Below are positions 1,502 to 64,000 of a stretch of DNA of 64,000 nt, piece by piece; positions within the stretch are counted from its first letter, which is position 1, and each line of letters begins with the position of its first letter. The DNA comes from Argopecten irradians (lineage: Eukaryota; Mollusca; Bivalvia; Pectinida; Pectinidae): the NCBI RefSeq assembly GCF_041381155.1, contig NC_091147.1, positions 15,661,318 through 15,725,317 of the forward strand. The letters are read 5' to 3'. The notes beneath the pieces were generated by a model, which saw only the letters and a list, made by a program, of their open reading frames with translations, did no database searches and was not told the DNA's origin. The translations under genes were made by a program, and so were the position numbers.

Positions 1502-5507
<4,006 letters not shown>

Positions 5508-11819: not shown

Positions 11820-16806
<4,987 letters not shown>

Positions 16807-20738: not shown

Positions 20739-27512
<6,774 letters not shown>

Positions 27513-31387: not shown

Positions 31388-31542
31388 TTAACTAGGGATA
31401 CTTTTCTTTTGAACATACAGTCCTTCAAATAATGAGTCCAGATTCACATCCGAATATGAGTTCTGTTTAAGCCATCTAGATGACAAATCCTTCAACTTGT
31501 TATAACTTGCAACAAAATCCTTTGACTTGATGTTGGCAAATT
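31388..31542 (-). CDS. Duplicate POLA1 terminal coding exon (distal copy)
   Basis: Intact second copy of the last POLA1 coding exon, 155 nt, with the same AATTTCAG acceptor, reading frame and stop as 33030-33184. It encodes the family's C-terminal [14 protein letters not shown] motif. At least one residue differs (Lys for Met in the N-x-LKDLSS stretch) plus a synonymous Val codon. Transcription meets the 33030 copy first, so this one needs exon skipping or downstream splicing to be used. It may be an alternative last exon or a non-functional duplicate; the sequence alone cannot tell. Confidence 0.8.
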
Positions 31543-33029: not shown

Positions 33030-33184
33030 TTAACTAGGGATACTTTTCTTTTGTACATACAGTCCTTCAAATAATGAGTCCAGATTCACATCCGAATATG
33101 AGTTCTGTTTAAGCCATCTAGATGACAAATCCTTCAACATGTTATAACTTGCAACAAAATCCTTTGACTTGATGTTGGCAAATT
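33030..33184 (-). CDS. POLA1: POLA1 terminal coding exon (proximal copy)
   Basis: The first terminal exon met by transcription. It starts with the last two bases of a split Glu codon after acceptor AATTTCAG and encodes the [14 protein letters not shown] block before a TAA stop; human ends SGYSEVNLSKLFAG. A second intact copy lies at 31388-31542 because of the 1.63-kb tandem duplication. Confidence 0.95.
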
Positions 33185-36100: not shown

Positions 36101-39100
36101 TTAACAGCCAGAGTCTTCAGTGAAAAACCACTGACCTATTCTCATAACCTGTCTACTATTAACTGTGTCTACTATGTTTGTTTCAAACATGCAATCCATT
36201 GGTGAAGAGTGTGCTACAATTTTAACAACTGTTTATCCAGACAGCCTCCACTCCTTTTAAAACCAGTAAATAATACAACCAAATGTGGGTTAGAGCAGTC
36301 TGTGTAATTCATGTGTAGTTACATATACAGCTTCTTTTGAGGGAGGTTAGAAACGAAGTTCCAGAACAAGCTTATTAGAGTTGTCTATTGGACACTTAAC
36401 CCTTTCAAAATGCACTGTAGATCATAATGAACTTATCCAGATCAAAGCATGGTAGAGTTTACTAAAGTTATATAGGGTTGAAAGAGTTAAGCTATGAGGT
36501 ACTGACAATGAAAATCATGGATATTTGGAAAATGGATGAGAGTTATGTTCTGGACAAAGATTTTATTTGGTATTTACTTACGTCCTATCAACAGTCAGTG
36601 TTATTTATGGACGGACACCCGTGTATGTGGTGTCTTGCGTGTGTGAAGTGCAAGGTGTGTGTTTTGAGAGACAAAGAAACATATGATTTATGTCCAAAAC
36701 CCAAACCTCCCGGATTGTTAATTTCAAGACGGCTGGATTCTTTTTATTTTATCAAACATCAAATCTGTTCCCTGATATTTACATCCCAAGTTATCCAGAC
36801 AATCAGCGTTCAGATTATAGAGGGACAGCAGTAAATCAAGACTTACCCAAACATTCAGCGAGATGTGCAGCATCTGTCCCCTCTATAGGGTCACAGAGAC
36901 GGGACACAACAGGATGGACCTGATGAGCAAGGTAGTACTTGGCATCTAGAATAAAACATAATTGTTACCAGGTTTATATATCATATAAACAAATGATATT
37001 TTTGCAATTTGGCAAGAAAACTTGATCAGTAAATTATTGAGAAATCGATTGAATCATATATATCCAGATCAGCAACATTTAACTGCTCAAATTTAAATTT
37101 TCAAACATCATTCTCCAGAGGGAGAAAATATTTATTCTAAACAGTATCTTTAACAAATTTTCTGCCTCTTGGCCATCTTCCATAACAAGAAGTTCAAGAC
37201 AAATTTCACATTGCTGGTTTTTGTTTACATGTACCGGATGATGGCAAAGACACCAAAACTTTGTAAAAGAAGAAACATTTGTATTTCAATTTGAAATTCA
37301 TTATGTCCATTTTCAGTTATAATTACAAAACAATTTTACCATCATAAATAATCACCTATGCGATACAAATGAAATAAGCATGTTCTATAGTCATTCAGTC
37401 CTGTTTGTTTGTTTATTTGATTAATTAACGTCCTATTATCAGATATGGTCATGTAAGGACGGTCTCCCATGTATGTGGTGTGTTGTGCGCATGTTGTGCG
37501 AGGTGCGTGTTTTGGGAGACTGCGCTATATTCATGTTGCGTCTTCTTGTATAGTGGAACTGTTGCTCAGTTCTGATATTTTGAATACTAAATTCTACAGC
37601 AGTATCTTAAAGATGATCACAAAACTCCTGCAAATTCACACTCAAATTTATATGGTTAAACAAAATAAATTTAGTTCACATGGTTACATGGAGGCAATAC
37701 ATTTGAAATACATACCAATGGTGAGAGTCTCACTTTTAGCCAGTTCGTCTGGGTGATAAGCTCGCTGTGATGCTGCTAACGTGGAGCCATCCTACAAAAA
37801 TATTTTTTTAAATCATAATTTTATTAACAACAGCTAGTCACAAAGAAATGTATGTGGCATAGAGATCTGTGGCGCTTTGTAAAGATTAGGCAAGGTCGGT
37901 ATCAGTGCATCCTTACAAAGGCATACTCACAACAAATTATATTGTTGATATTGTTTATGGTAGGAATAAAATTACCAACATTTTTCATATTATTTTTTTA
38001 TATAATGATCTGAATCTACCATTACATGAGATCTGAATCCACAATATTTTCCTTAATTTCGCTTATCCATCAAACAATAACATCTTAATGACCAGTAAAA
38101 CACCAAATCTACTAAACTAAATAATTTCATTTGCAATAACGTCTGTGTAGTTTATCAAATTAAATCTTTGAGTCCATCAATTGAAGGTTATAACATAGTC
38201 AAGGTTCCTATAAGATGTTTGTTATATGTATATTTAAGTCTTGTAAGTCTTTTTAGACTGGACATTTTAATTCAATTATATTTTATTGTAAGTTTGAAAA
38301 ATGTGTGACACTCTAATAAAATAAATTATCATTATATTATTATTACTATTCTAATAGTGAAGTAATCTTTTTGCATAATAATCATGTTTCACTTATTTTT
38401 CACTGGAATCCACAACACTTTGTGACACCTGTAAAATTCTCACCTGACAGATAATATATGGTACTGTGTCACCTGCCCTCATTCTCTTTCCTCCTTTACT
38501 GTTAAATCTCATGGCAACTTGAACATGAGGTAGACTTTTCTTGTCGGGATAATCCTCCGGATTTTTCGTCAATGCCTGAAATCCATTAACTTATTATTCA
38601 AGCTTCTGAATGATGTCATAAGAGATCTTTTAAACAGCAATACAGAGTATTTTTTTTACCTGTTTGATAAACGAGGTTCTACAATGAAGATTACTATATG
38701 ACAAGAGGACTATTTTTACCTTTGTGATATAGAAGAGTTCCACTGGTATTTTGTTGTCCTTGACTTTTTCCCCGACCTCCATCAATTTGTTGTGAATGTT
38801 TTCCACAACAGTTTCCTTAGACTCACCAGAAAGAATCTGGTCAACGACAAAGCTGAAACATAAATTTATTGGATGTTATAATTCTCAACTTACACACGAG
38901 ATCTTCATTAATGATTTACAACATAATAGATAAAAAAACAAGAGGCCCAGAGGGCCTGTATCGCTCACCTGGTTTGTAATGCCAAGTAATGTTCTAAATA
39001 CAGGTTCATTGTTTCCTTTCTGAAGGAATTTTAATATTAACCTCTAAATCCCCTATTGGGCCCCACCCCTCCTGCCCCCAGGGGGTCAGAGCCAAAATTT

Positions 39101-42100
39101 ATACAAGTTCTGTTCCCCTTCCCCCAAGGATGTTTGTGGCCAAATTTGGTTACATTCCATTCAGAACTCTATGACTAGTAGCGATTTAAAGGATTTACCT
39201 CTATATCCCCTATTGGGCCCCGCCCCTCCTGCCCCTGGGGGATCAGAGCCAAAATTTATACAAGTTCTGTTCCCCTTCCCCCAAGAATGTTTGTGGCTAA
39301 TTTTGGTTACATTTCATTCAGAACTCTATGACTAGTAGCGATTTAAAAGATTTACCTCTATTTCCCCTATTGGGCCCCGCCCCTCCTGCCCCTGGGGGAT
39401 CAGAACCAAAATTTATACAAGTTCTGTTCCCCTTCCCCCAAGAATATTTGTTGCTAATTTTGGTTACAATCCATGCAGAACTCTATGACTAGTAGCGATT
39501 TAAAGGATTTACCCCTATTTCTCCTATTGGGCAGTGCCCCTCCTGCCCCTGGGGGGTCAGAGCCAAAATTTATACAAGTTCTGTTCCCCTTCCCCAAAGG
39601 ATGTTTGTGGCCAAATTTGGTTACAATCCATGCAGAACTCTATGACTAGTAGCGATTTAAAGGAAATGTTGACAGACAGACGGACGGACGGACGACGGGC
39701 CATGACATAAGCTCACCCGCCCTTCGGGCCAGGTGAGCTAAAAAGAATAAAATGGTCTTTTGTTGACAATGAAGCAGGAATCTCCGAATGAAAGAGAAAC
39801 CATCCGCCAAAACAATTCCTCTACACAAAGATTTCTTTCAAATATACACATGACCTTTTGAGAGAGAAAGAACTTCACATGATAGGTCTGTATCAGCTTC
39901 CAGGAGGGGCTAATTAAAATCAGAACTAGAAATTAATGCAAGACATTAAATAACTCTGCCTCTTTATGAATTCTGAATAGTATGGGAACAGAAGTTTGCA
40001 TCACTATATGCCTCCATTTCATGTACGAGTATAAAACTCCTTCCGAGAAGCCTTATTTACTTAGCAAACTAGAAATGCCTGTAAGACACAAGTATCTCTG
40101 TCTCTAAATGAATTCTGAACAGAACAGGACAGATGTGGGATACACAATACTACTGATACTAAGGTATGTGTCTCCTCCATCAACTCCTTGCCATACTTAC
40201 TTGCCAGCTTCCTTAGCTAGATCTGACCAGTCTCGTCTGACAATATCCAGCCCCTTCAGTTCACGGTGTGTTGTGTATTTACCGTCACCACCCTTTGTCA
40301 CGTTTAGAGCAGCATATTTTTTCTTTTTGAGGAGAAGCATTGACTGGAATACACCGTCAATATCAATCTCCAGAAGTCTGTACAGCTTGTTTACCTCACC
40401 TTTCACCTGAAAACACAAAACATTTATTTCAACGTACAGTCAACCCTGGCTATAAAGACCACCCACAGTACAAGATTAAGTTGTCTCTATAGCCAAATAG
40501 TCATTATCAACAAGTCAAACTGGGTTAGAAAAGATCATTTGGCGCAATAAGCAGGTAGTCTTTATACAGAGGTGGTCACTAAGGCAGGTTTTACTGTATC
40601 TACAATGCAGAAAATGTATTTATAGGCAGGGAATAAAGACAGATTGGTTGTTTAATGGAATGATTTGATTTAACTTTACCCAAACAGCTCAATATAACCA
40701 ACAATCATCTCCTATGACAGGTATTGAAGAAATACATAATCATTTGTTGAAAACATGACTATCCCAGGGTTTACTGTAACTGTCATTATAGCCACCCTGA
40801 ATTATGTCATAGCAAAACTGAAGGCACCGTGTGTGACAACAGATGAGACAGATAGTTTAGTCCTTTGAAGTACATCAAAAGAATCAAATAAGTGTACACT
40901 GTATGACTTTAGAGTTGAGAGTCTATATCAACCTATGGTTGGTCAGCATTTTTCTCCTCAACTGACTTCAGATTTGCTTTGACATATTCCAGGGTTGGAT
41001 ATGAGACAGCAATAGTAACCCCTAGAGTATAGGGAATAAGTAATATCATATTTGTTACTATGGACTAGTACCTTGTTGCCCAGTTTGAAGACGACATCGA
41101 GATCTGTACAGTTGGTGTTCACCATAATGGAATCTGTGTCGCCATAGATGACATCCAGGTTCATCTGTAAACGTAATGTTAAACTGATAATTCTTGTCAT
41201 ATTGACAAACATATTACAGATACAGAAGAACATGTTCATAACAAACAAACAACAGATTCATGGTTAAAATATCATAATTTTTTACTCCCTGTCATGTCTA
41301 TAACGAACTGTGCTTATAGCAAGAAATTCAAACAATAACAGGAATAATAGCGTCATTGTTTGGTATTAATTTTGCCTTGCCATATGGACACTAAAGATAA
41401 GTAAAGAAAAATATCAATACTAGCTTTCTCTCAACCCTGTTTAGACATTTGGTTCTTCTAGTTGCTGTGGATTGTAGATTTATATAACAGTGAACAAAAT
41501 GACTTCTGAAAACCTGACACTGAAAGTATTGGTTGGATGTGACTGCTTGAATATTTACTTACCCCTTGCACAAGATCTTTAGTTTTCATTAAAATCTGCA
41601 AAAGATAAACGAGACAAAATCAAGAGATGCATTTCATCAATTCGGATATTTTGCGTCACTTTTCACCTCAGCTATATAGAAAAAAATTCCCCATCATAAC
41701 CAGATTTTTAAAGTATGGGTTATAAAATATTTGTTGCACGTTTCTTACTTGACATTTCAATGACTAGTACTATGTGTAAAATGTTGCTTTTATCAGACAA
41801 ATCTTTCTTCTGATAAAAATGACAGTAGTCATCCAAACATCACACAGGAAACATTCATTTTTAGCGTTACAAATATCATAAACCTATTTCAGAAATTATT
41901 TTAAACAGAATTTCCCGTCGGTTCAAGGTAATCCAAAATCTTACAATCTAATTAATATTAGACTTGTAATTCCACTCCATTATGGTGCTCTATGATATAT
42001 TTCAAGATTTTAAAAGAGCTCTCAATTCATGGTCACCTCAGCATGACCCCTGGCCTAGAATCAGGATTCCAAATCTTACAATATTAAATAATTATGACAT

Positions 42101-45100
42101 CTACAATATCTCCCATCTTTGATGGTATACAATGTGTGTGATGCTATTTACCTCTCGTCCTTTGCCTGTGATGAGAGCGGCCAGAGGTTTAGCGTAAAAC
42201 CGTGAGAATGTAAACCCTAGACACCCGTACATACTGTTGGCGGTCAACTTCAGGGCTTTCTGGCGGATATCGTACTGTAAAAGATAATCATATCACAATC
42301 ACTGCCAGTCATTTTAATTACATGAGCTACATTTTAGAGTTTGTACAAAGAAAATTTAATTTATTAATATTTCATATCCAGAAAACTCCAAAAACGGTTA
42401 TGAAGGCATAAATTTTAGAATACGACAACAGAAAGCCCATTGATGAATTCAAGCAGATTTTTTAAACAAACGTTATTGTAACTTTTAAAATGGCTACACT
42501 AAACAAATTTGAAATCACATTTTGACTGGCAAATATACCTATGAAATTAAAATTTAACATAGAAGTACTGTTTGAAACCTCAATGCTTTGTATAGTGCCT
42601 GAAAATGTAGTTAGCATCAAACGGATTGGCAAGCTAACTGATCAAATAATCTTACTTGTGTATACTGTTCGTGAGATATATCGCCTTTCATCAGCTGTTT
42701 CACTTGCCGTCTGCTCTCCACCAACTTTCTGATCTCTGTTGGCAGAATGCCAGGTTCCAGGTCGGGTTCGGGTAATTCTGTAAACATGTCCTCCTCTGCT
42801 CCTTCCTATCAACAAGACGACAAAACCAATGATTCGTGCCATTTTTACAAGAAGATATAGGATATTTACTTGCTTGTTTGGCTATGTCATAAAATATCTA
42901 AGATACATGTGAATGACTGAATGGACACCACCACAAGTACTTTAGAATTTTATTAGAATCTACAACAAAACATATTTGGTAAAGGACATACACTCCCAAA
43001 GATCTCATATTGGAGTCAATTTAAAAGTTTCTGCTTAATATTTTCCATCACCGACTTTTTTATATGAAGGAAATCTATATCTGCTAATACACAGCATAAT
43101 AAGTGATCAGAAAACAAGACATAGTGTGAAATTCTACAATTCAAGACACCAATAGTGATTTGAAGTACTATACACCACTTTCTTTTCATGAATTTGTAAA
43201 AAAGAACTCATAGTGACAATCAGTCATTCTAATATATGTTTTATCCTTTTATACAATTATTTGAGAAACATTTGAACTCACATTCAAATTTTTTTTTATT
43301 TGTATCTCGTGAAAAATAAAAGGTTTATAGTATTCTATGTTGTACTTACAGTTTTCTGTTTGTCCTTGTCAGGGCATTTGGCTGTAGTAAAACTGATGTT
43401 GTACTTACAGTTTTCTGTTTGTCTTTGTCAGGGCATTTGACTGTAGTAAAACAGATGTTGTACTTACAGTTTTCTGTTTGTCCTTGTCAGGGCATTTGAC
43501 TGTAGTAAAACAGATGTTGTACTTACAGTTTTCTGTTTGTCCTTGTCAGGGCATTTGACTGTAGTAAAACAGATGTTGTACTTACAGTTTTCTGTTTGTC
43601 CTTGTCAGGGCATTTGACTGTAGTAAAACAGATGTTGTACTTACAGTTTTCTGTTTGTCCTTGTCAGGGCATTTGACTGTAGTAAAACAGATGTTGTATT
43701 CTATGTTGTACTTACAGTTTTCTGTTTGTCCTTGTCAGGGCATTTGACTGTAGTAAAACAGATGTTGTACTTACAGTTTTCTGTTTGTCCTTGTCAGGGC
43801 ATTTGACTGTAGTAAAACAGATGTTGTATTCTATGTTGTACTTACAGTTTTCTGTTTGTCCTTGTCAGGGCATTTGACTGTAGTAAAACAGATGTTGTAT
43901 TCTATGTTGTACTTACAGTTTTCTGTTTGTCCTTGTCAGGGCATTTGACTGTAGTAAAACAGATGTTGTATTCTATGTTGTACTTACAGTTTTCTGTTTG
44001 TCCTTGTCAGGGCGTTTGACTGTAGTAAAACAGATGTTGTATTCTATGTTGTACTTACAGTTTTCTGTTTGTCCTTGTCAGGGCATTTGACTGTAGTAAA
44101 ACAGATGTTGTATTCTATGTTGTACTTACAGTTTTCTGTTTGTCCTTGTCAGGGCATTTGACTATAGTAAAACAGATGTTGTATTCTATGTTGTACTTAT
44201 AGTTTTCTGTTTGTCCTTGTCAGGGCATTTGACTGTAGTAAAACAGATGTTGTATTCTATGTTGTACTTACAGTTTTCTGTTTGTCCTTGTCAGGGCATT
44301 TGACTGTAGTAAAACAGATGTTGTATTCTATGTTGTACTTAAGTTTTCTGTTTGTCCTTATCATGGTGCTTGACTGTAGTAAAACAGATGTTGTATTCTA
44401 TGTTGTATTTACAGTTTTCTGTTTGTCCTTATCATGGTGCTTGACTGTAGTAAAACAGATGTTGTATTCTATGTTGTACTTAAGTTTTCTGTTTGTCCTT
44501 ATCATGGTGCTTGACTGTAGTAAACAGATGTTGAATTCTATGTTGTACTTAAGTTTTCTGTTTGTCCTTATCATGGTGCTTGACTGTAGTAAACAGATGT
44601 TGTATTCTATGTTGTACTTACAGTTTTCTGTTTGTCCTTGTCAGGGCATTTGACTGTAGTAAAACAGATGTTGTATTCTATGTTGTACTTAAGTTTTCTG
44701 TTTGTCCTTATCATGGTGCTTGACTGTAGTAAAACAGATGTTGTATTCTATGTTGTATTTACAGTTTTCTGTTTGTCCTTATCATGGTGCTTGACTGTAG
44801 TAAAACAGATGTTGTATTCTATGTTGTACTTAAGTTTTCTGTTTGTCCTTATCATGGTGCTTGACTGTAGTAAACAGATGTTGTATTCTATGTTGTACTT
44901 AAGTTTTCTGTTTGTCCTTATCATGGTGCTTGACTGTAGTAAAACAGATGTTGTATTCTATGTTGTATTTACAGTTTTCTGTTTGTCCTTATCATGGTGC
45001 TTGACTGTAGTAAAACAGATGTTGTATTCTATGTTGTACTTAAGTTTTCTGTTTGTCCTTATCATGGTGCTTGACCGTAGTAAACAGATGTTGTATTCTA

Positions 45101-48100
45101 TGTTGTACTTAAGTTTTCTGTTTGTCCTTATCATGGTGCTTGACTGTAGTAAAACAGATGTTGTATTCTATGTTGTACTTACAGTTTTCTGTTTGTCCTT
45201 ATCATGGTGCTTGACTGTAGTAAAACAGATGTTGTATTCTATGTTGTACTTACAGTTTTCTGTTTGTCCTTGTCAGGGCGTTTGACTGTAGTAAAACAGA
45301 TGTTGTATTCTATGTTGTACTTACAGTTTTCTGTTTGTCCTTGTCATGGTGCTTGACTGTAGTAAACAGATGTTGTATTCTATGTTGTACTTAAGTTTTC
45401 TGTTTGTCCTTATCATGGTGCTTGACTGTAGTAAACAGATGTTGTATTCTATGTTGTACTTACAGTTTTCTGTTTGTCCTTGTCAGGGCGTTTGACTGTA
45501 GTAAAACAGATGTTGTACTTACAGTTTTCTGTTTGTCCTTATCATGGTGCTTGACTGTAGTAAACAGATGTTGTATTCTATGTTGTACTTACAGTTTTCT
45601 GTTTGTCCTTATCATGGCGTTTGACTGTAGTAAAACAGATGTTGTACTTACAGTTTTCTGTTTGTCCTTGTCAGGGCATTTGACTGTAGTAAAACAGATG
45701 TTGTATTTACAGTTTTCTGTTTGTCCTTGTCAGGGCGTTTGACTGTAGTAAAACAGATGTTGTACTAACAGTTTTCTGTTTGTCCTTGTCAGGGCATTTG
45801 ACTATAGTAAAACAGATGTTGTATTCTATGTTGTACTTACAGTTTTCTGATTGTCCTTGTCAGGGCGCTTGACTGTAGTAAAACAGATGTTGTATTCTAT
45901 GTTGTACTTACAGTTTTCTGTTTGTCCTTGTCAGGGCATTTGACTGTAGTAAAACAGATGTTGTACTTACAGTTTTCTGATTGTCCTTGTCAGGGCATTT
46001 GACTATAGTAAAACAGATGTTGTATTCTATGTTGTACTTACAGTTTTCTGTTTGTCCTTATCATGGCGCTTGACTGTAGTAAACAGATGTTGTATTCTAT
46101 GTTGCACTTACAATTTTCTGTTTGTTCTTGTCGGGGCGCTTGACTGTAGTAAAACAGATGTTGTATTCTTGGATGATCGATGGATACAAACTGTTGAAGT
46201 CCAGCAATAATATGAACTTGTCATAGAAACCTGTAGGATGTAAAACAAAAAGTTCTTCATTGAAGTTGAATTGGTACATGGGCAGTAAAACCTCTGGAGA
46301 CCAAAAAATAAAATTGCTTTGTTATTAACATTGTTCGTTACACACATTATAGACATCTTATAGAAACCTTGACGGGGAATGGAAGTCATGTTCTTACCAT
46401 GCAGTCGCTGTTTTGAAGTTTTGAAAATCAAAACGTCCAAAATAGCTATCAAAATTACCATTGAATTAGTAAGGCCAAAAACGTTTCTGCAGTAAAAACA
46501 ATATCATTCATACAAATCTGTGACACTCCAATTACTTTGAGAATTTGAGAAAAAAAAAAGATGAGGTTTTTTCCTCCGAAACTTAACCATTGAAAGCCAT
46601 TGAAAAAATGTGTGAAACCTACATGACCGAATACAGTGTCACTACGAAATAATTTTGTTATAATAAACACTATATATGTTTGCAAATAAAAATCCTCAAT
46701 TGAAGCAGTGATCATTGAAGATATGATTATTTCCTAATCTACCTCTTTTGGGTTCCAGTACCAGACCGCCAGCGTAAGCAGGTTTCCGTCGTCCCTTCAC
46801 TGGCGCCTTCTCTTCACCGTCTTCATCGTCCACTGGAGCCTGGCCAGATATAAATATATAAATAATGAACAACTATGTTTTACATCATAGGAGAAGACAT
46901 ACAAATAGTACTCTCACATGTGATCAAATTTTATGGACAGGTTTTAATTAAATCGCTCGAAAAAAGTTGAAACTTGATATTAACTTTGATGATTAATACT
47001 ACATGTATTACTTACTGCTATTTTCTTCTTGTATTCCTTATCAGGAACAATGAAGTTTTTCTCTGTGAAGGCATGTAGCAGTAGGTATTCATTCCTCTCT
47101 GATCGGCCACCCATTAATGTCCTCGTCTAGAAAAAAAAGTGAAAAATTTACTTTAGAAACATCTTTTCTTTTTCTTTACATATGATAAATATTATTATTG
47201 AATGTCCCCATCTCTATATTAGAAATGATACAGATGCAAAATCTGTTCGCAATGAAGCATTTTTCTAAAATATATAGAAATATCAGTTTCGATTTTTTTT
47301 GCTGAAAGAATGAAAATTTGTAGCTCTGAAAGAAACAACCAACATTACACAACATAGACTTGGCTCAGATTATGTGTCAAACTTATCACAGAAATAGCTT
47401 CATTTTTTTTTTTTTTTAATTTCAACAGAAATATTACCATGACGTTTCCACAGATATTGGTGATCTGTAGAGCCAGAGGTAGGACGTTCAACTCGTACAT
47501 TATCCGTAGTATCAACGTCGAATCAACAAGAGTTAGTTCTACAAACTGCAGCAGCTGTTTGCTGGATCTGGAAAAGAAATGTTATGATTTATATTTATTG
47601 TAAACTTGTATTTATCACACTTTTAAACCCAAATGGAAAAAATATTACTGAACCCCAGAATTAAGCCAATTCCATTTAAATATTAAAGTGTAATTATATT
47701 TCAATGGACCTGAATATATAATTCAAAATTATTAAGTTTGTGCACAGGGTTTGCTTACTTATTCAGTAACAATTTGAAAACAGTAGAAAAATCTTACTTC
47801 AAAAGCAAATCTTAGTCACAGAGATACTTACAAAGAGCAGCTTTCTTTTAAGTGTGATTTATTTTGTGAATTTTGTGATTAAAGTAAATAAGTGAAAGTT
47901 TCTTTCCACAAATAAATATCCACCAGTCTCATATTGATTACTTACTGGTACATGATTTTGATTATTTACTGGTACATGTCTTTGATTACTTACTGGTACA
48001 TGATTTTGATTACTTACTGGTACATGTCTTTGATTACTTACTGGTACATGTCTTTGATTACTTACTGGTACATGTTTTTGATTACTTACTGGTACATGTT

Positions 48101-51100
48101 TTTTTATTACTTACTGGTACATGTCTTTGATTACTTACTGGTACATGTTTTTATTACTTACTGGTACATGTTTTTTTATTACTTACTGGTACATGTCTTT
48201 GATTACCTACTGGTACATGTCTTTGATTACTTACTGGTACATGTTTTTGATTACTTACTGGTACATGTTTTTGATTACTTACTGGTACATGTTTTTGATT
48301 ACTTACTGGTACATGTCTTTGATTACTTACTGGTACATGTTTTTGATTACTTACTGGTACATGTTTTTGATTACTTACTGGTACATGTACTTATTGGTAC
48401 ATGTTTTTGATTACTTACTGGTACATGTCTTTGATTACTTACTGGTACATGATTTTTATTACCTACTGGTACATGTTTTTGATTACTTATTGGTACATGT
48501 TTTTGATTACTTACTGGTACATGTCTTTGATTACCTACTGGTACATGTCTTTGATTACTTACTGGTACATGTTTTTGATTACTTACTGGTACATGTTTTT
48601 GATTACTTACTGGTACATGTTTTTGATTACTTACTGGTACATGTCTTTGATTACTTACTGGTACATGTTTTTGATTACTTACTGGTACATGTTTTTGATT
48701 ACTTACTGGTACATGTACTTACTGGTACATGTTTTTGATTACTTACTGGTACATGTCTTTGATTACTTACTGGTACATGATTTTTATTACCTACTGGTAC
48801 ATGTTTTTGATTACTTATTGGTACATGTTTTTGATTACTTACTGGTACATGTTTTTGATTACCTACTGGTACATGTTTTTGATTACCTACTGGTACATGT
48901 TTTTTATTACCTACTGGTACATGTTTTTTATTACCTACTGGTACATGTTTTTGATTACTTACTGGTACATGTTTTTGATCTGATCGTAGTCAAGCTCAAT
49001 CCGCTTCTGTTTCAGTATTACATTGGCCAGTTCAGTGAGATCGTAACTTCGACTGCGGATGAGCTCCCGTGATGATATCTTGACGTCACACAGAAGACGG
49101 CCACAAGTGATGTACTTGTCTGTGAACCCTCGTCCTGCGTGGGTCTGCAACAAGGCACTAACACTTATAAATAATAGCGAATATTGTGTTTCAGCCACTA
49201 ATCCAAATTCATGTCTCTGATACACGGAGTGTGTTTCCTGAAATTCTTATCGATTTCCAGAAAATCTCATCTTTTTGTGTCTTTTTAACATATGTGGCGA
49301 CAAATGTTTGAAAGTAATGCATATTTATTCTTGAGGGAGAGATCAGGAGCCTTTTTTTGCAAATATCAAAACGTTTACAGCAGCAGGCATTACTGAAAAC
49401 CGGAGATCTATCCAGACTACCCAATTTTTCATTGAATTACTTCCTACTCATCAAACACAGATAATTCTTGAATTACCATATTATAGTCACACCAAAGTAT
49501 TTTGCTGAAAGTCAATATGCTTATTCTATTTCACTCGATATCCTTCAATTCATAAATAATAAATAACAATAAAACATTATTCTGTTATAAAACCTAGACT
49601 TATGATTCAATACAAACATTCTATCTATTCACGGATATTTTATTGATTTCACACAACATTGGCAATGATCAGGAAAACTTGATATGCTAAATATTGTGAA
49701 ATGATTTAATGTTATCTAATCAGAAAGTCAGATCACAAAAAATCAAAATTGATTAATTTAATATCAACATTTTAGGTTGAAATCACAATATCTTTTAACC
49801 AAATCAATAGCAAAGTGAAATAAAAGATATACAAAATAATCTGAATTCTGACAAGAAAGTTAAATTAGAGCTGTTGATACATACCGAAAGCTTGGGCATT
49901 TTTGTTCTCTTAAGACGACCGAGCTTTGACCAGTGAGGGATCTTGTTGGCATTGATTCTGTGTAACAGTACATCCAAGTCAAACCCATAGATATCATGGC
50001 CCTGAAATCATTCAGATTTGTCATGGAATACTAGAAGGAGTATCTCTAACTTCAAGAATGCAAAGCATTAAACTTCAAAATTATTTTAGCGTAAGTTTCA
50101 TGTGAGTGCTTTTCAGGCCAGCTGTGCTAAAATATGATTGAATGAATTGTATTCACTTTATATCATTTACATAATGGTGTTTGTGCTAATTTATCATGGC
50201 GCCAAACTCTTAAGATCACTTTTGTGCTAAAATTGTTTTGGTGCAAAATAAGTATTAAGTAGGATGTTGTAGCTAATAGTTCATCTTCTCAAATTTTCTT
50301 TCAAGTGTCCTTACCACTAAGACATCTGGGTCGATCTTGTGAATTTTGGCAAGCATGTAGCCTAGTAGAGCTCTCTCATTGGGAAATGTTTCCATTTTTA
50401 TATTGCAACTCTGCAGATACAAAGGGAAAATACATTATTTATGCATCGAGTAATCCTAAAAATACAGATGTCTATAGAGACAATATACAGATGTCTATAT
50501 AGACAAAATACATAAGTCTATAGAGACAAAATACAGATGTCAATATAGGCAACATACAGATGTCTATAGAGACAAAATACAGATGTCAATAGAGACAAAA
50601 TACAGATGTTTTGGACAAAATTCAGAGTTCTTTAGCCAAAATATAGATGTCTATATACAAAATAGAGACAAAATATAAATGTCTATACAGACCTGCCAAA
50701 AACAGGTCTATAACAAATATTGATGTCTATGGAGACAAAATACATAAGTCTATAAAGGCTAAATGTAGATGTTTATAGAGACAAAATACAGATGTCTATA
50801 GAGACAAAATACAGATGTTTTGGCCAATATACAGAGTTCTTTAGCCAAAATATAGATGTCTATATACAAAATAGAGACAAAATATAAATGTCTATACAGA
50901 CCTGCCAAAAACAGGTCTATAGACAAATACTGATGTTTATGGAGACAAAATACAAATGTCTATAAAGGCTAAATGTAGATGTCTATAGAGACAAAATACA
51001 GATGTCTATAAAGGCTAAATGTAGATGTCTAAAGAGACAAAATACAGATGTCTATAGAGACAAAATACAGATGTCTATAGCCAAAATACAGATGTCTATA

Positions 51101-54100
51101 GAGACAAAATACAAATGTCTATAGAGACAAAATACAAATGTCTATAAAGACAAATTACAGATGTCTATAGAGACAAAATACAAATGTCTATAAAGACAAA
51201 ATACAGATGTCTATACAGACAAAGTACAGATGTCTTTATAGACAAAATACAAATGTCTAAAGACATAATAAGTTCTTATCAGTTTTTCGATAAATACACC
51301 AACTATTTAATGCAGGAGAAATTTTTACACTAAAATGTCCTTTGTTTAATTGATGAAAATTCCCCTCTCACATAAATTTTCACAGTAATTTTGTTCAGTA
51401 CCAACAAAATACTTTCAATTACACATGGTCTTAAGACTTACATTTTAGAAGTTCAATTGTATATCATCAAAGCAAATTAATTCTTTCATTGTTCAAAGAA
51501 TGAATCGAGCAATGGCTCTTAAAAATACTCCTCCCCACCCATTTATTCATCATGAACAGTACCAGTCTGTCCATTTTTTGAAAACCCAAACATCATGCAT
51601 GCAAACTTCTTAGTTATCACTTTGGCATTGTGCCTATAAACTTAGGAAACAGAAGTGCAGCACATCCATGCAGGGTCACTTTACAAAACTAGCTTACAGT
51701 GTATACATCCAAAATTTACTGTAATATTTCAGATTTCTTTTGTTTAATTCTCAATGATGTTTCAATCAACGAAACTCTTTTGAGCTTACAAAGATTTGTA
51801 CGACACTAATAAATTCTCTTACATTCAACATGTTTTGAAATAAAAATTGTGATATACATTTTATAATTTAAAATAATCACAGAGCAAGCTTGAATCAGGA
51901 GTTGTAGATGAATTCTAGAAATTTCTGACCTATCCAAAATCAAAATTTCCTTCTGTGCATGCACAAACTATAATCCTTATAATATTTTTTACTCTAATAA
52001 CACTGTCTTAATCATAGTGCAATGAATGATAAAATTGTCTAAAGAATTAAACAAAGATATCTCTCACAACTTTGACTGCTGTATGAACATCTGATATGTA
52101 GTATTTACAAACACAATAGGTGTGCAAAGCAGTGTCAATGAAGTGTCAATGAATTGTCAATGAAGTGTCAATGAATGTGTCAATGAAGTGTCAATGAAGT
52201 GTCAATGAAGTGTCAATGAATTGTCAATGAAGTGTCAATGAAGTGTCAATGAATTGTCAATGAAGTGTCAATGAATTGTCAATGAAGTGTCAATGAAGTG
52301 TCAATGAATTGTCAATGAAGTGTCAATGAAGTGTCAATGAATTGTCAATGAAGTGTCAATGAAGTGTCAATGAAGTGTCAATGAATTGTCAATGAAGTGT
52401 CAATGAAGTGTCAATGAATTGTCAATGAAGTGTCAATGAAGTGTCAATGAATTGTCAATGAAGTGTCAATGAAGTGTCAATGAATTGTCAATGAAGTGTC
52501 AATGAATTGTCAATGAAGTGTCAATGAATTGTCAATGAAGTGTCAATGAAGTGTCAATGAAGTGTCAATGAAGTGTCAATGAAGTGTCAATGAATTGTCA
52601 ATGAAGTGTCAATGAATTGTCAATGAAGTGTCAATGAATTGTCAATGAAGTGTCAATGAATTGTCAATGAAGTGTCAATGAATTGTCAATGAAGTGTCAA
52701 TGAAATGAAATTGAAATAAATAATACTATCAAACTTATGAAGCATTAAAAACCTGGGGGGAGAAAAATGATCTTAAAATTAATCCTGGGAGGATGCTATC
52801 AACAAATTAAAGGCACCATCACAGAAGCAGTGTTACCTCTCCATGAGCTGCATACGACGATACATAATTAAATATAAACATATTAACATACATAGTAATT
52901 AACTCAGTGATATAAACTCGTTAAAGGTGTTTCATTTACATCAGGATCTTAAAACATTGAAATGACTCTTTTTTCATGATAAAGGCGTTTCATTTACATC
53001 AGGATCTTAAAACATTGAAATGACTCTTTTTTCATGAAAATTTAACAAGGTCTGTATCAATAAAAAGAAATAATTTTACAAAATACTACCAGAGTTCAAC
53101 ATTCATAAAGAATTTATTCAGGTGGTCTATTTTTATTTCTATGTAATAAGTATATAGGATGATTTCAAAAACTCCATTTTACTTCCACTGAAAAAGATTA
53201 TGACAACAATAGTAGAGTTCATATATTTCTAAATCTCTTGTTAGGGCTGTTCCAGCAAAACATATACAGTGGACCCGCGATAATCCGGACGCCGATAGTC
53301 CGGAAAACTCACAATCCGGACGGAAATGTCAGGGAACGGATTTCAGTAACGGTATTTATACTCACTAGTCCGGAAATTCGTATTCCGAATCCGGAACTCC
53401 ATTTTGGGAACGGAATGTAATTTTCGTTAATAAATTCCCGCAATAATCCGGACAATTTGTTGTCGCGACGTGCCGAGAAAATCCAAGGCCAGCTACAATC
53501 ATGTGTACAATACACACTATCACTTGTCACTGACTGTGTTGTCATAACGACGGCTGCCAGGTCATAGCCACGGGCGTTTACCTGAACACCTTTCCCACAC
53601 GGGTACATGCAGTCATGTAACGGTTCATAAGTTTTCTATAGGAGATCAAACTTCAGTGTTGTAATTGAGATACGCAATATATTTTTAGCAACACGCTTTT
53701 AAACATGCAGTTTGAGTTTGGGTACGGGTACGTATGTTGTAGATACCATACTTGTTTCGCATGCAGAATATATCGCTATGAGTATCGGATACAATAAAGT
53801 GAGATAATACTCACAAAATTAATAATAATTTTAAATGTATGTGAATCTATTCGAATTCATCGTCTGTGGTATAAGATATAAAGGCTACGGCATATGCCAT
53901 TTACACGTGTGTGTGATATTGTGCACGAAGTTAGACGTGAATGGGCGCGTGGTTGTTACACACGTCTGTAAGTCAGAAAGCAAAGACTTGTGGAAATGGT
54001 GATTAAAAACACACATTATACAAAATAACAATTATATAACTTCATAAAATGTTCACAACTATTTGTTATCATAGTTTTTTTATGCCAAGAACGTAGATAA

Positions 54101-57100
54101 TATTGATCCTTGGTTAGGCAATTTGCCGTACGACAGATCAAGAGTGGGATAGGTAGTTATATGCATACATAGTGCAAAATTAACGACGTCACAGCCTTAT
54201 GTTTCGTATTTCGAAAAAAGAAATACGTTTATTTAATATTCTTAACGTAATGATTTAAGAATACCTATAAAACATAACAAACAAAGTATTAATTATAATA
54301 CACGTATGTTACATAAAAGCCTATCATCGATTACAAGGTCAAGGGGAGTAACTCGTACGTGACAATTTAATTGACTAACACGGAATTCGTCAGTCCGGAA
54401 AACTCGTAATCCGGATGGTTTAGGCTGGGAACCAAGGTGTCCGGATTATCGAGGGTCCACTGTATGGCACCCAGGGAAGGCACTTTAAAAAATAGTATGT
54501 GCCATGGTGGGTTCAAAATAAAATCACTTCTGTGCCAGGGTGGCGTTTCAATAAAATCCCTTCTGTGGGTGGGTCTATCTGAAGCATTTGTAACCGAAAT
54601 AAAATGCAAATTTTATGTTTTATTATGTTGCTCAGTCATCTGGACTACAAAAATGAATATTGAAAAAAATGTTAATTTCTGACAATATTTAATGTGTTGT
54701 TCATCTTCAATAAAAAACAATTATTTTATTTTCTGAGTATTTTGATATAATAATGATAGACTATTTATCTAAATTTTGCTAAAATATATTTTTTACTTAT
54801 AATTAATGTCCGTATTCAAATTACAGTTATGTTATATATAAAATCCTTTATTTTTGCATGATGATGTGAGGTGTATAAGTACATAATGTATATCAACAAC
54901 ATTATTGTAAGAACTGGGCCCCCATATTTTCCATTACAACAATTTTTCACAATCATTATGCCATTTTTACAGTTGTCCCTGATAAAAACCACTTGCTAAA
55001 ATAAGCAAGTGTATATTTTTTTCACTTGCTATTCTGGTATATCTACTTGCAAAAAGCAAGTAAAACAGTCTGAAATCCGAGCCCTGATACAAATCGGAGT
55101 GAAATTAAAAATTAAATCGCTTCTATGCCATAGTCTTGTTCACAAAAAAACAGATATGTGTGTGGGTCAACCAAATTGAAAATCACTTCTATCGGTGGGT
55201 CTCCCAATTTCAAAGTGCCTTCCCCCCCTACCATATATGTTTTACTGGAACAGCCCTTATTTAGTAACTGCTAACTTGATCGACACTGATAGAACTATCT
55301 TACCTCTTTCTGTATTTTGTCTTTGAGATCATATGGGAAGATACAGTCATTGGGTTTACCAAGTGCTGAAACAGGCAAACATATTGGTATGAAAATTGAT
55401 TATAACAAACATAGATGTCCCTGCATTCAGAAATTAACACAAGATCTGACAGTACAGGTCCAAACATAGTTAACATTCTATCCTCCTTCCTACCAGAACC
55501 AGTATAAATTTTGTAGTTTGACACTTTTGTACTGAAAAGAATTGGCACAAATTCTTGATATGGTGATAATTATTCCATACATACCTTACTTAAAAATTTA
55601 CTTAAAATATTATTCTTCTATTCATTTATTATGCAACGCTTCAAGACTGAGAACCTTGGTATCACAGATTTCTAGAGAATTCAGACAAGTGGAATGAAGT
55701 TTTAATGGTGTATAGATAGAGATGATATATCTGTAATAGAATACTTTACCATAGAAATGTTCCTGTGTATAGATAGAGATGATCTATCTGTAATAGAATA
55801 CTTTACCATAGAAATGTTCCTGTGTATAGATAAGAGATGATATATCTGTAATAGAATACTTTACCATAGAAATGTTCCTGTGTATAGATAGAGATGATCT
55901 ATCTGTAATAGAATACTTTACCATAGAAATGTTCCTGTGTATAGATAGAGATAATCTATCTGTTATAGAATACTTTACCATAGAAATGTTCCTGTGTATA
56001 GATAGAGATGATCTATCTGTAATAGAATACTTTACCATAGAAATGTTCCTGTGTATAGATAGAGATGATATATCTGTAATAGAATACTTTACCATAGAAA
56101 TGTTCCTGTGTATAGATAGAGATGATCTATCTGTAATAGAATACTTTACCATAGAAATGTTCCTGTGTATAGATAGAGATGATCTATCTGTAATAGAATA
56201 CTTTACCATAGAAATGTTCCTGAAACTGTGTCTTGGGAGCTGGTTTGTCAATCTGGAAGGAGTTGTGTACCAAACATGAAAACCCAATAACCTGAAAAAC
56301 AAAATGTCCCAAATCAAACAACATCCATCTTTTGTTAAACTTTCTCTCAACTAGATTTTAATAATCAAAGGCAAATTTTAAAGAACATCACTAGAGACAA
56401 TATCCCCCCCCCCCCCCAATACAAACCTCATTCTGGTGTGTTTTTGGATTAGGTAGAGTACGCAGGTTCATCGTCATGACAACAAGGGGAGGCGGAGACA
56501 AGTTCAGAGAGGAGTCTGCCATCACACTAACATAGTCTGGTCGCGTTAACGTCACCTAGTAAACAACAAGAAAACATTAATACACGGAAATCAGCAAAAT
56601 TGTATCTGCATATTATTTTCAGCCATTATTTTGAGAAGCAAAAGTACATATTTCCACTAAACAAGAAAAATTCTATAATCAAAAGACTATTTGTTATTTA
56701 TCTAGCACAACTTCATAAGACATTAGATATGATATAAAGACCTTACATTAACTATAAAAAGATAATTTTACATTGAAGCATGTATCAATATCAAACTACA
56801 TACCTCAAGTTTACACCAACTGATGGGTGGATTGGAAATTTCTGTAAAATAATGAATATTTAGGAACAGATTATAATAATATGTACACCAAGTGATAGTG
56901 AATTGAAAATTTCTGCAAAGTAATGAATATCCATGAACAATTTATAATGATATGTACTTTTTCTTTCCAAAGTGACACATGTTTTTTCATCTCTTACCCT
57001 AATATTTTTGTTCTCTATACAAGTCAGTTTCCAGAGGTTTTATATTAATCCTTGTTTAATGTTATCATTCACAATATCAAGATCGTCTGTATAGTCACCT

Positions 57101-58025: not shown

Positions 58026-58104
58026 CTGTATAACACATAAATCAGAATTAACAGAATCTCTTAACATATCAATGTAATGAGACTTGGATATTATAAGTCA
58101 AATC

Positions 58105-58290
58105 AACAGCCAGGGCCATTTTAAGGAGGAACAAGGTTTAGGTAAGCCAGAGCAGCTGGGGAAAACGACACTAACCAATGGTCAGTACCTGGTAACAACT
58201 TTACATAGTATTTGAACTCGTGACCCAGAGATGGAGGTCTTGTTATGATATGTTGGGACAACGTTATCATTTAGCCAGCGCGGCCCCGTC
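58105..58290 (-). mobile_element. tRNA-derived SINE
   Basis: On the minus strand: a tRNA-like head with GCGCTGGCTAAATGATAACG and a B-box-like GTCACGAGTTCAAATAC, then a body with ACCAGGTACTGACCATTGGT, ending near TTAAAATGGCCCTGGCTGTTG. The final CTGGCTGTT matches the tail of other retroposons here. Not a functional tRNA gene: no cloverleaf end or CCA-side stem. Confidence 0.65.
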
Positions 58291-61200
58291 AATCTTGAAC
58301 AATCTAGTTTTCAAAGCATGAATTTTACTTTGTTTACACAATCAATTTTAGATATACAATAATTTTTTATTAATTGCCCAGAGAGAATAAAGAAATTTGA
58401 AAGTTCCATGGGATTTTGGCATTCAGATTGGCCTATATGCACTGGGATGATTTTGTTAGATGGATTTTCAACATTAATCAAGGTAACAAAAGAACAGGCC
58501 GAATACAGAACTCTAGCTGGGCTCACGCTTGCTTTCCAGTTTGCTTAGCAAAAGTTGTGAAAATGGGTCTGTTTTCGTAGCATTTGTTAATGAAAAACAT
58601 TAAATCACTTAGAAACACTAAATAATGTATTGTATGCATCATTTGAAAAGCACATTACATACAAATCCCTATCATTCAATAGACCAAACTCTGTTGTGCA
58701 TTACTTGACACATTCCTCAACATTAAAACAGACATTGTACCATAACTGATTATCTTATTGACTATTTTAGACTTCCTATGAAAGCAATGTGACTGAAAAA
58801 GAAGGGCCGTTTTTGATTATACGGTTTGACTGGTTGGACCTAGTTGTTTGTTTATTCATCAAAGACGGACCTGGTGATTTTACATTGTTTTCAGACGAGC
58901 CTTGGCAAAGCCCTCACATGCCTGTATCAAAAACTGCAGGTCTGTCAAGATTTATACTTGAAATAATAACTTTAACCAACGGTTGAACCGGTTGTTCCGA
59001 ATAAACGAAAACGGCCATAGATACAGCGAAATCATGTATGGAAAAAGTAGTCAATAAGTGGCAGGAGGGAAAGTCAAAAATTATAAATTTCAGTTTATGC
59101 TGGAAATGGCTTTATTAGCACGTGTAGAAACCTCTCCGTGCCGCGCGCGACCGGAATAACCTGTAAACCGTCGATATCGAGGTCCAAACTTCTGACCGCC
59201 CGATTATGCATATTTTCTAGCTCTAAACCGTGTGACATCATAATAGTCCGTGGCTTATAGCTGTACTATAACTGATGTGCTATCACTTACATCGACGGTC
59301 ACAGGAAAAGCCGATCAACGATTTTTTATGATTACTTTTGTGTGAAGTTAATCATACAATAACTTTGGCTCGAATGTAAATAACTAAAAGAGTGAAATTC
59401 GATGTTTCAAATACTCTAATTTATGCTCTAATAACAGGTATCTTCGTGTAATTATGAAAGAAAATCCACACAGAAATAAAAGTTTCGATTTTTTTTGTCG
59501 AGGAGTTCAGCAACGAATAAGCTTTAATTAGATAATATTTTCCTGTAGTCTGTATCTTTGATACATTGTGAATTACAAAGTTTGTGACTGTAAAATGAAA
59601 TTTTATGAAACAATTTCAGAAATCCTTTATTAAAGTATTGACGTACATACCAGAAACATATATATATATATATATGTATACGGTGTATATGTTTCTGTAC
59701 ATACACACCGATGATTGATCATTACAAACATTGTGTTGTGTGTTGCTAACCGAATAAATTGAGATACATTTATTACAATACCGTAAAACGTTTCAACATG
59801 TGGTAGAAAGAATTTATTTTTGATATTATAAAAGATCTAAATATTGAGATATTAGCAAAACAAACTATTTTTTCAGACTGTGTGGTCGCTTTCAATTTTT
59901 AATCGATATACGAGTAGATATCCCTATATAGATATATAATTAGCCATGTCTTTGGTTTGATGGTTATGTAATACCTGGGCCAGGATGTTGTTTACCTGTA
60001 CCAAACGCCATTCATCGAACTCACCTGTAAGTACCTGGCCGCGGGCAATTTGCTATTCGGTGGACTATGTCGGGTATTTGCTATTGTCTTACTGTCAATC
60101 AGGTTAGGACATCCGTTAATTGGATTGTGACTTGAATTATGGAAACCCCGTACATCTATGCTCTAGGTTTTTTTATTGTCACCTCCATTTTTAAAATGAA
60201 GATGTAAAAGCAAATGGAAATAAAATATCCCTGATCATACATGTACCTAGGAATATATATTACATATATATATGCCGTACACAGGTAAAACAATAATGGA
60301 AGTTGACTTATTCAGAAACAAAAATGGTTCTAAGAACTATTTCAACTAAAGATTTAACCTTAAAAATTATTCCAGTCTAGTACTGTAATTACGGAATCGT
60401 GGAATATAGCAATCACCCGTAATTTCTAAGGTTTTAGGAAAAATTCTAAGCATGTATTTTCATAGCCGCAATATTGTAGCTCAAAAGACTTTTTGACAGA
60501 AAATGGTGTCGTCTTTAGAAAGGTATAGTAGGCCGGGTACGTATATTCGTTCTAGTATTTTCACCGTTTCGAATCTACATGTATAGTCATACAAGAAGGG
60601 TTACAGCATTACCACACTAAATATACTTATTTAAATATCACCAAGTATAATTTTGAAAAGGTACAACATTTCATATCTATTTATGATGCCTGTATACAAG
60701 TAATTTCATTTTTCATTTGAACACTATATGTGGTTACTTTTTGGATAATACGATAAATGTTCATATATCATACTATTAAATCTCGGTATGATATACAAAA
60801 GGATCGACAATGGATATACTATTTTAAGGATTTAGTATAATTTTGAAATTATGAATTTAAATCTACACTTATACTGTAATTTAGAAACACATATCAGAAA
60901 TATCATTGATGTATTTCTTCTTTTTAGTAAATGTTATGGATAAAGTTTCAAAGGCAACAATATAGATATACATATTATTTTCGGTATAAGTTCGGTATTG
61001 TCACTCCAATATCACATAACTAATAACCGTCCACATTTTACTTTTACTCAAAAACTGTGACGTATTTGCATCGTTATGGTAGAAGTTTGAAATAAAAACA
61101 ATAATAAGTAATAAGATAGCGTTGCATTATACTGGGGTTTTTTTTATTACAGAGAAATTTATATAATATGCTATCTAAATCTCAGTCCAGACTGATCCGA

Positions 61201-61554
61201 ACATCATTTTGATATCGCTATCAAATTGGACAGATTATCTAATCTAAAGTTAGATATATGCTTGTTTGAATGTTTGAAATGGTGTAAATGGATTGTTTTG
61301 AAACTGAAAATATCTACATCATTATCTCATTATCTCTGAACCGTAGTCGACACTACCCGTAAATCACGACCAAAACCAACCGATAGCGCTAAAAGCTAGG
61401 CGATTCGTTGGGTGGGACTTAATTTTTCATTCATCAAAAGCAATATCCTGACGTATTATCAAAAAAATATTTTGGCTGCACAAATCCTTTAATATCTTAA
61501 CGGAATATCCCTTTGTATAGAATATGCAACATCTGCAAATAAACAAGATATTGT
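58291..61554. other. No recognised gene: presumed POLA1 upstream intron
   Basis: No exon continuing POLA1 upstream of 58025 was found, and no other gene. Seen instead: an AT microsatellite near 59657-59690 and one member of a 39-bp repeat pair (about 59037-59075, second copy about 63760-63798). Confidence 0.5.
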
Positions 61555-61810
61555 TAAAAACAAGAAAAAAATATATTTCACCTTACATAAAAAAATATTT
61601 TTTGTCTTACATAAAAAAAAAACATTTTTCGTCCCACATAAAAAAAATATTTTTCACTATACATAAAAAATATTTCTTGTCTTACACAAACTGTTTTACG
61701 TGAGCACGTAAACGTTTTACGTGCTCACGTAATAAGTTTTACGTGAGCACGTAAAAGAAAAAATATTTTTCACCCTACATAAAATCTTTTTTTTTTGGTC
61801 CTACATTAAA
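61555..61810. repeat. Degenerate AT-rich tandem repeat with GTGAGCAC hairpins
   Basis: Repeated CTTACATAAAAAAATATTTT-like units flank three alternating copies of TTTTACGTGAGCACGTAA and its inverse (about 61693-61757), which can form hairpins. Confidence 0.75.
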
Positions 61811-62037
61811 AAAAAAATTTTCGTGTCACTTCTGTGCCGCCGTACTTTTATGTTTATTTTTGAGAAATGTTTTGTTAATAATGTTGCTTCAGAATGAATC
61901 AAATTACACAGTGATGCTATCATTTCCAAATATTATTCGACATGAGGTCTTCAAAAATTAATTAAAACGTTTACATGTCAGAAAATGGGCGATTTTCTAT
62001 GTCGGAAATACTCAAAATATTGCCGATTTTTTATAAC

Positions 62038-62612
62038 TTAAAGGGACAATTCACTCAGGCTAATTCTTTTACATAACCAAAAAGCAAAATATGGCATAAA
62101 TGTATTGTTTTACATTTCTTATGAAACATATAACATAAAATATTGACAAATTCCACGTCATTGTTTAATATTTTAATTAATATCGTTGAAATATCAATTC
62201 GTTGATCAATACGATTAACAGGCACAATATGGACGTTGTACCCATACCCGAGCCAAAGTCACGCACGTTAAACAAATAAACTACATAACCCCTGAGAAGG
62301 TGATAAAATGATTTTTAGGCAAGACAATTCGCCTAATAAGGTAAACACACTACTGTCAGAGCGATTTGAGCAGTTCTAGACAAAAGTTGCATTACTCTAC
62401 GAGCAAGGGACAGGGTTCGGCATACAAGAAGTTCGACCACAATGTGTAATGGCGGACAGCGAGCGAGTTTGAACATCTACACACATGTCACAACCATGGG
62501 CTTTTCAGGCATATCACAGTAAAAACGACTGATCTAATTTCCATTAGAACTGGGTTTTTTTCGATATTATGTACAAATTTTAATGTTTTCTTCGACTGAA
62601 TTGTCCCTTTAA
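62038..62612. mobile_element. TTAA-bounded MITE, copy 2
   Basis: Starts TTAAAGGGACAATTCACTCA and ends CGACTGAATTGTCCCTTTAA; 575 bp. It is the inverse-oriented relative of 30095-30668. TTAA ends fit piggyBac-like elements, though no transposase is present to confirm. Confidence 0.8.
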
Positions 62613-64000
62613 AAACAATATATGCGCAAATTACCTGAAATATCGTAAACAAACTAATCAATATTTGTATCATGGCTCCATCAATATATTTGCTCTGTAA
62701 AACACTGTTATTTCTGCTTTGTCCGTGCCGATTCACCGTCCGTTCACCGCTTCTTTCACTTTCTATCGTTCCGAGTAGTGTGTTTATTGTAGGATGTTAG
62801 TACATTATTTGCCGTTGAAAAATGCACGAAAATAATCTGATCAACTGTAAATGAAACATATTAAAGGATTATTGAAGTTTTGACAACAAGTTTTTAACAA
62901 AATTATCAACACTCACGGCTGTAGACTCGCCAGCCATTCCAGGACCAACACGGCGTCATGATCAGGTAATGGCGATAGTACGGGACCTCGCCGTTTTTCA
63001 TGTACGTCAGATTTTCGTTCGGTCAAATTGAATAAAAAAATCGTCAAAATCATTGTCAGATTATATCCTTTTAGGCCTGTGATATTTAAATATCATGACA
63101 TCGTACTTATAATTACAAATATATACCGTAATATCAACAGCAGAAGCCATGATGGCGTCCCCGGTAACATGAGTGAAGCAGTGAACACAAGTGCGTCGGC
63201 AGAGTTTGTAACAGTTGTCTCCCTTTGTACGGACTGTTCTTTTTGACATGTTCGTTAGTTTGGGGAATTCTAGTTCATTTTTATAAAATATTAGTGGATA
63301 GGCCTAGCAATATTCGATTAAATACCCGTAATTGAAAAGGCATTTATTGTCAGTTGAATTATTTTTACTTACAAACAAGTTCATATGCAATTACTGTTAG
63401 ATTCGCGGTTTGCAAGTTAGTCTGCCGTAGGTTAGTAAGGCCAACAGATCTAGATGCAGCGCACTCACTAGTATAAGTACCGATATTGAGACACACTTTC
63501 GGTGAGAATAATTAATAACTAATTGTAACATTGAAAATAAGTCTAAAGTAATTAAGTAGGAAATTATAATGTGACTGAAACATGTAATCAACGGAGAACC
63601 TCTGACTGCTGTATAATACACAACGTACGTTGCAATACACAGTGTAAAGTTATCTCCCGTAGTTCCGGAAACTGTCGATAGGATTACCAAGGTATAGTGT
63701 TCCGGTGATAATTGAAAACCAGAGTGATTACATGATGGCAGGCTGCGCCTCCATAAAAAGTATGGAAAAAGTAGTCAATAAGTGGCAGGAGGGAAAGTGG
63801 ATTGAAATTAAGTTGTGCATAAAAACATCACCGAATTTGGAGCTCTAGTTAACATGATTGGATATTGGGCGATTGAAGAAAAAACTTTCGCATTTTTTTC
63901 GAATTAGGATGAAATTATTTTCGAATAAACCAGATAGATTGGCTAATAACGAAAATGAAAATGGGTAGTGAGCCCAACTCTAGTGCCTAAAAATTCACAA
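62613..64000. other. Unassigned sequence at the window end
   Basis: Two ATGs on the minus strand precede good donors: 62917-62937 (MAGESTA then GTGAGT) and one at about 63151 (MASAVDIT then GTATAT). Either could be a first exon, but no downstream partner is recognised, so no gene is called. Confidence 0.3.

Follow-up and report, generated by a model that had tools for sequence, protein, structure and literature searches.

How does a single gene come to carry minisatellites on several of its 5′ splice sites, and does this call for a mutational process tied to splicing, or would ordinary tandem duplications suffice? We address this question in a 64,000-nucleotide stretch of Argopecten irradians DNA (NC_091147.1, positions 15,661,318 to 15,725,317 of the forward strand), hereafter the window, in which the first letter is position 1. 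At approximately 33.0–58.1 kb, the minus strand of the window carries the gene for the catalytic subunit of DNA polymerase alpha, POLA1, which we recognized by spliced alignment. Three tandem arrays in this gene, with units of 71/59, 24 and 57 bp, overlap the 5′ splice sites (donors) of exons E16, E12 and E8, respectively, and extend into the intron only. We conclude that they are probably ordinary tandem duplications, tolerated with the original splice site in place and later enlarged by unequal exchange.

Three arrays that span POLA1 donors

The original prediction placed three minisatellites in this gene and had each of them run from a real donor into the adjoining intron, and our analysis bears out both points. 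Tandem Repeats Finder (TRF) scores the arrays at 3788 (E16), 1717 (E12) and 986 (E8), and the final exon bases, located by spliced alignment at 46112, 48963 and 56207, respectively, each lie within the first unit of the array (Table 1). As judged from the array limits, the exon ends and the open frame, all three exons are left intact. Each array is a 5′ splice-site-spanning minisatellite: its short unit, within the range of roughly 10–100 bp, takes in the true donor of a coding exon, and the array runs into the intron. The predicted exon contributions to the unit were right for E16 (57 nt) and E8 (16 nt), while alignment of the units of the 24-bp array gives 17 nt for E12 in place of 14. The units differ by patterned variants and also in length, with 59, 69, 70 and 71 bp in the E16 array, where the 59-bp form lacks 12 nt of the 71-bp form, and 16, 23, 24 and 25 bp in the E12 array.

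The gene model was obtained by spliced alignment with a human sequence as guide. Thirty exons were proposed and 27 kept (E4–E30), the first three (62763–62575, 59694–59577 and 58516–58329) being left out as unconvincing. Of the placed exons, 26 (E4–E29) link into a single open frame, and the spliced product, over a stretch of 397 aa that takes in E16, has matches to PDB chains bearing the name DNA polymerase alpha catalytic subunit (E = 5.6e-184). The previously given figure of 26 donors is correct within the window (E4–E29) but not as a total for the gene. The N-terminal exons, corresponding to human residues 1 to ~436, were not convincingly recognized by spliced alignment in 58100–64000 and may lie beyond the end of the window, so POLA1 has more than 26 donors. 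All placement tests below took in these 26 donors and 26 acceptors; the acceptor of E4, which is uncertain, was counted among the 27 acceptors of the self-comparison and not in these tests. The last exon is present twice, at 31400–31542 and 33040–33184, in near-identical copies with similar flanks that represent a local duplication; the alignment picked the former, and we used the latter, whose lower end is approximate. A scan of viral contigs for related POLA1 loci with a 134-aa stretch returned seven pattern matches, none of which was confirmed, and a search of Rfam found nothing matching at the gathering score.

Table 1. Features of the window, with the donor arrays first; array limits include the exon part of the unit
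Feature	Position	Strand	Description and basis
71/59-bp array, E16 donor	43336–46169	−	42 units, 57 nt exon + 14 nt intron; TRF (two overlapping rows merged), unit alignment
Exon E16	46112–46230	−	last 57 nt form the exon part of the 71-bp unit; spliced alignment, open frame
24-bp array, E12 donor	47934–48979	−	44 units (two of 16 bp), 17 nt exon + 7 nt intron; TRF, unit alignment
Exon E12	48963–49144	−	last 17 nt form the exon part of the 24-bp unit; spliced alignment, open frame
57-bp array, E8 donor	55708–56222	−	9 units, 16 nt exon + 41 nt intron; TRF, unit alignment
Exon E8	56207–56291	−	last 16 nt form the exon part of the 57-bp unit; spliced alignment, open frame
71-bp two-copy duplication, E6 acceptor	56812–56957	−	TRF (82% matches), self-comparison, alignment of both copies
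POLA1 exons E4–E30	33040–58082	−	human residues ~437–1462; spliced alignment, open frame, PDB match
23-bp array	50459–51270		ends ~50 nt upstream of the E10 acceptor without spanning it; units hold acceptor-like TTTTGTCT...TAG
157-bp unit, 4 copies	39036–39664		POLA1 intron; consensus looks richer in GC than its surroundings
Three beta-tubulin gene copies	1502–5500, 11820–16803, 20739–27509	+	exon landmarks in the same order
30-bp array	6643–7685		35 units; lies apart from the exon landmarks of the tubulin genes; an open frame of 305 codons spans 6691–7605

Founding of the arrays and fate of the extra donors

An ungapped self-comparison of the gene, at offsets of 8–400 around 26 donors and 27 acceptors, finds repeats at the three donors and at one acceptor, that of E6. 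This exon begins at 56841, and the extra copy of the duplicated segment lies upstream in the intron, with the AG kept (TTTGCAG). The E6 duplication, absent from the original prediction, is the mirror image of the donor cases.

The ends of the founding units were read by eye from the sequence at both limits of each array, the one in the exon and the distal one. Both limits of the E16 founder carry the direct repeat AGAATAC (7 bp), and both limits of the E12 founder carry ATCAA (5 bp); among random pairs of gene positions at equal spacing, direct repeats of at least 7 bp occur in a fraction of 0.0026 and those of at least 5 bp in a fraction of 0.0094. Short direct repeats are what slippage or microhomology-mediated joining leaves behind. 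As for the subsequent growth, self-comparison of the E12 array reveals an internal block whose copies, 328 bp apart, differ by few mismatches, and a longer period of 210 bp is present in the E16 array, both of which are expected if blocks of units were exchanged unequally. The native E16 copy differs at four sites from all 41 other copies and thus seems to exchange no longer with the array. While tandem repeats often cause assembly errors, which might affect the arrays themselves or their copy numbers, the patterned variants, the varied unit lengths and the block structure go beyond simple misassembly. We therefore regard an artefact as very improbable, although copy number may still be wrong.

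Under the account by tandem duplication, each array would have started as one short duplication straddling an exon–intron boundary; short direct repeats flank two of the three founders. As the end of the exon and its original donor would remain first in line, the mRNA would be unchanged and the duplication nearly neutral as long as this first donor was chosen. Later donors would run straight into stop codons, and extra copies would have multiplied inside the intron through slippage and the unequal exchange of multi-unit blocks. At E6 the same filter would operate in mirror image, the original acceptor staying last. Among these steps, we infer first-donor use, near-neutrality and the mechanism of growth. 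Of the three suggestions made originally, a co-transcriptional R-loop, splice-linked template switching and selection that permits growth only downstream of the first working donor, the last fits best, and once mirrored it also covers the E6 acceptor.

The reading frame and the extra donors bear on this filter. The first in-frame stop past the native donor ends 15 nt (E16), 4 nt (E12) and 23 nt (E8) into the intron, so that use of a later donor would result in a premature stop. The intact coding frame suggests use of the first donor, which is likely to serve in the main transcript despite the many similar sites downstream. According to a donor matrix built from 23 of the 26 donors, which as a whole score 3.5–12.8 bits, the sites that outscore the native donor or fall short of it by no more than 2 bits number 9 (E8), 36 (E12) and 27 (E16) with the native site counted, and 8, 35 and 26 without it. 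Such an abundance of near-native sites, each array having an early stop past its native donor, would also suit a scenario in which selection maintains the extra donors for their role as regulators of splicing or as decoys, adjusting the level of POLA1 via unproductive splicing. The human gene ABCA7 offers a parallel, as the length of its array accompanies lower expression and skipping of exon 19 in the excerpts of PMC5954066. However, the GT, which had been predicted in every unit, is intact in all 8 extra copies at E8 but in only 40 of 43 at E12 and 31 of 41 at E16, where the donor G is missing from nine copies and changed to A in one more. Moreover, conservation across the extra copies is no higher in the donor columns than elsewhere: six columns drawn at random were as conserved in a fraction of 0.60, 0.67 and 0.63 of the draws in the three arrays. 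With donor positions as variable as the others, no selection on the extra donors is visible, and we consider their maintenance by selection distinctly unlikely.

Where introns are created by tandem duplication of an AGGT-bearing segment, the new intron arises inside an exon. The array-bearing exons of POLA1 join the next exon in frame and the units lie wholly at one end of the intron, which, as far as this one sequence goes, weighs against intron creation here.

Donor arrays and chance

The number of arrays on donors was compared with a null in which the founder unit falls randomly on the viable positions within the gene. For the 11 loci in the gene with a TRF score of at least 50, in rows merged by hand, three lie on donors where 0.51 are expected (P = 0.011), and four on any splice site where 1.02 are expected (P = 0.012). 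When only the five arrays with at least five copies are considered, the three on donors stand against 0.19 expected (P = 0.0004), and three arrays at any splice site against 0.37 (P = 0.0028); the six arrays with at least four copies give P = 0.0017 for donors and 0.013 for any splice site. A wider set comprised 25 loci with a period of at least 7 and a score of at least 30, one of them wholly exonic and their rows likewise merged by hand; across the other array sets P ranges from 0.0017 to 0.02 for donors and from 0.011 to 0.025 for any splice site. The true surprise is smaller than these P values convey, because both the array sets and the gene were picked after the pattern had been seen. 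That the pattern is hard to explain by random slippage, as was originally proposed, is thus too strong a statement, since P falls to 0.0004 only for the five arrays with at least five copies.

The same counts can be read as the signature of a mutational process tied to transcribed 5′ splice sites, in which an R-loop, a stalled U1 or polymerase, or repair templated by pre-mRNA would seed or expand repeats preferentially. Donors carry three of the five arrays with at least five copies and acceptors carry none. Nor is the donor count predicted by the opportunity for slippage: among viable direct-repeat pairs of at least 5, 6 and 7 bp, the share at donors is 0.061, 0.059 and 0.053, and that at acceptors 0.054, 0.043 and 0.042, so opportunity does not favor donors and fails by itself to explain their number. 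Several features nevertheless speak against such a process. The distance from the donor varies, and the exon and intron lengths within the units (Table 1) follow no common rule, which weighs against any process measured from the junction; direct repeats mark two of the three founders; and an acceptor is affected as well, at E6. In all three arrays C outnumbers G on the coding strand (skew −0.20, −0.06 and −0.20), which does not favor R-loops, and the aligned units contain exon–intron joins but no exon–exon joins, which leaves splice-linked template switching unsupported. Over the 11 arrays, finally, P is 0.011 for donors and 0.012 for any splice site, in a gene that was chosen for its pattern. 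A junction-linked mechanism is possible, yet the data of the gene itself do not require it, and we hold it to be unlikely.

We find it improbable, too, that transcribed exon–intron boundaries, and donors above all, are hot spots across the lineage, seeding or expanding minisatellites so that many genes would carry donor arrays. If they were, the spliceosome would routinely face dozens of near-identical 5′ splice sites and have to choose the first. Outside POLA1, no TRF array adjoins an exon landmark in any of the three beta-tubulin copies in the window, by inspection against these landmarks rather than exact splice sites. An excess of donor arrays genome-wide, if found, would indicate that the birth of repeats is linked to splicing or transcription.

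Tandem duplication followed by unequal exchange has its own difficulties, which must be set against the evidence above. A donor bias is possible, given that three of the five arrays with at least five copies are on donors, a number that opportunity alone leaves unexplained. The limits of the E8 founder have only 1 bp in common and provide no evidence either way. By the donor matrix, the native donors of E8 (4.7 bits) and E16 (5.3 bits) are weak. The excerpts of PMC5954066 further report that long ABCA7 alleles accompany disease risk in addition to the lower expression and exon 19 skipping, and that in one brain region alternative transcripts exceed the canonical one in 90% of cases. By the precedent of these long alleles, the near-neutrality of the POLA1 arrays would be doubtful.

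Comparison with known repeats

Minisatellites that span a donor are a known kind, also found in human genes, but the presence of three in one gene is unusual. This cluster, with a fourth case at an acceptor, is a notable example. In one human case, the IFI6 gene (6-16, G1P3), a minisatellite with multiple splice donors was reportedly described by Turri in 1995. The excerpts of PMC4526556 state that two downstream repeat units of IFI6 serve as donors, giving three mRNA species. The arrays of IFI6 and POLA1 are both minisatellites supplying several donors within a single transcript; in POLA1 there is an early stop past the native donor.

The closest counterpart of the E12 array is a 31-bp variable number tandem repeat (VNTR) of human CBS, named c.1444_1467+7(16_21), which has 16–21 copies and is polymorphic in people (PMC2630376, in excerpt). 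We read this name as 24 nt of exon end followed by 7 nt of intron with the donor, which is near the 17 + 7 nt of E12. One such array is named in that text, whereas POLA1 has three. In human ABCA7, the VNTR of intron 18 has a 25-bp unit and approximately 12 to 427 copies, and starts at the donor GT of exon 18. It is described from this GT on in the excerpts of PMC5954066, whereas the POLA1 units include 16–57 nt of exon. The same excerpts term splicing at the first donor canonical and report that 2 ± 1% of transcripts retain a single unit, leading to a frameshift and a premature stop. As for E6, its counterpart is CBS 844_845ins68, a tolerated 68-bp duplication of an intron–exon junction that occurs on some chromosomes only; the excerpts of PMC2630376 speak of "splice donor sites" although the junction named is an acceptor.

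No report of several donor arrays in one gene turned up in the openly licensed literature, as represented by titles and the starts of abstracts, although no search was aimed at this. The excerpted parts of PMC4732748 (clam globins) and PMC3045353 (fish) contain no donor array that could serve as a molluscan precedent, and those of two papers on donor competition (PMC8724738 and PMC5585400) are not decisive.

With three donor arrays in an essential gene, POLA1 provides a natural test of how one 5′ splice site is chosen among near-identical ones, the later of which would give early stops. Together with E6, these arrays suggest that splice-site duplications are tolerated in either orientation if the outermost genuine site is kept. 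Such tolerance bears on the origin of VNTRs like those of CBS and ABCA7.
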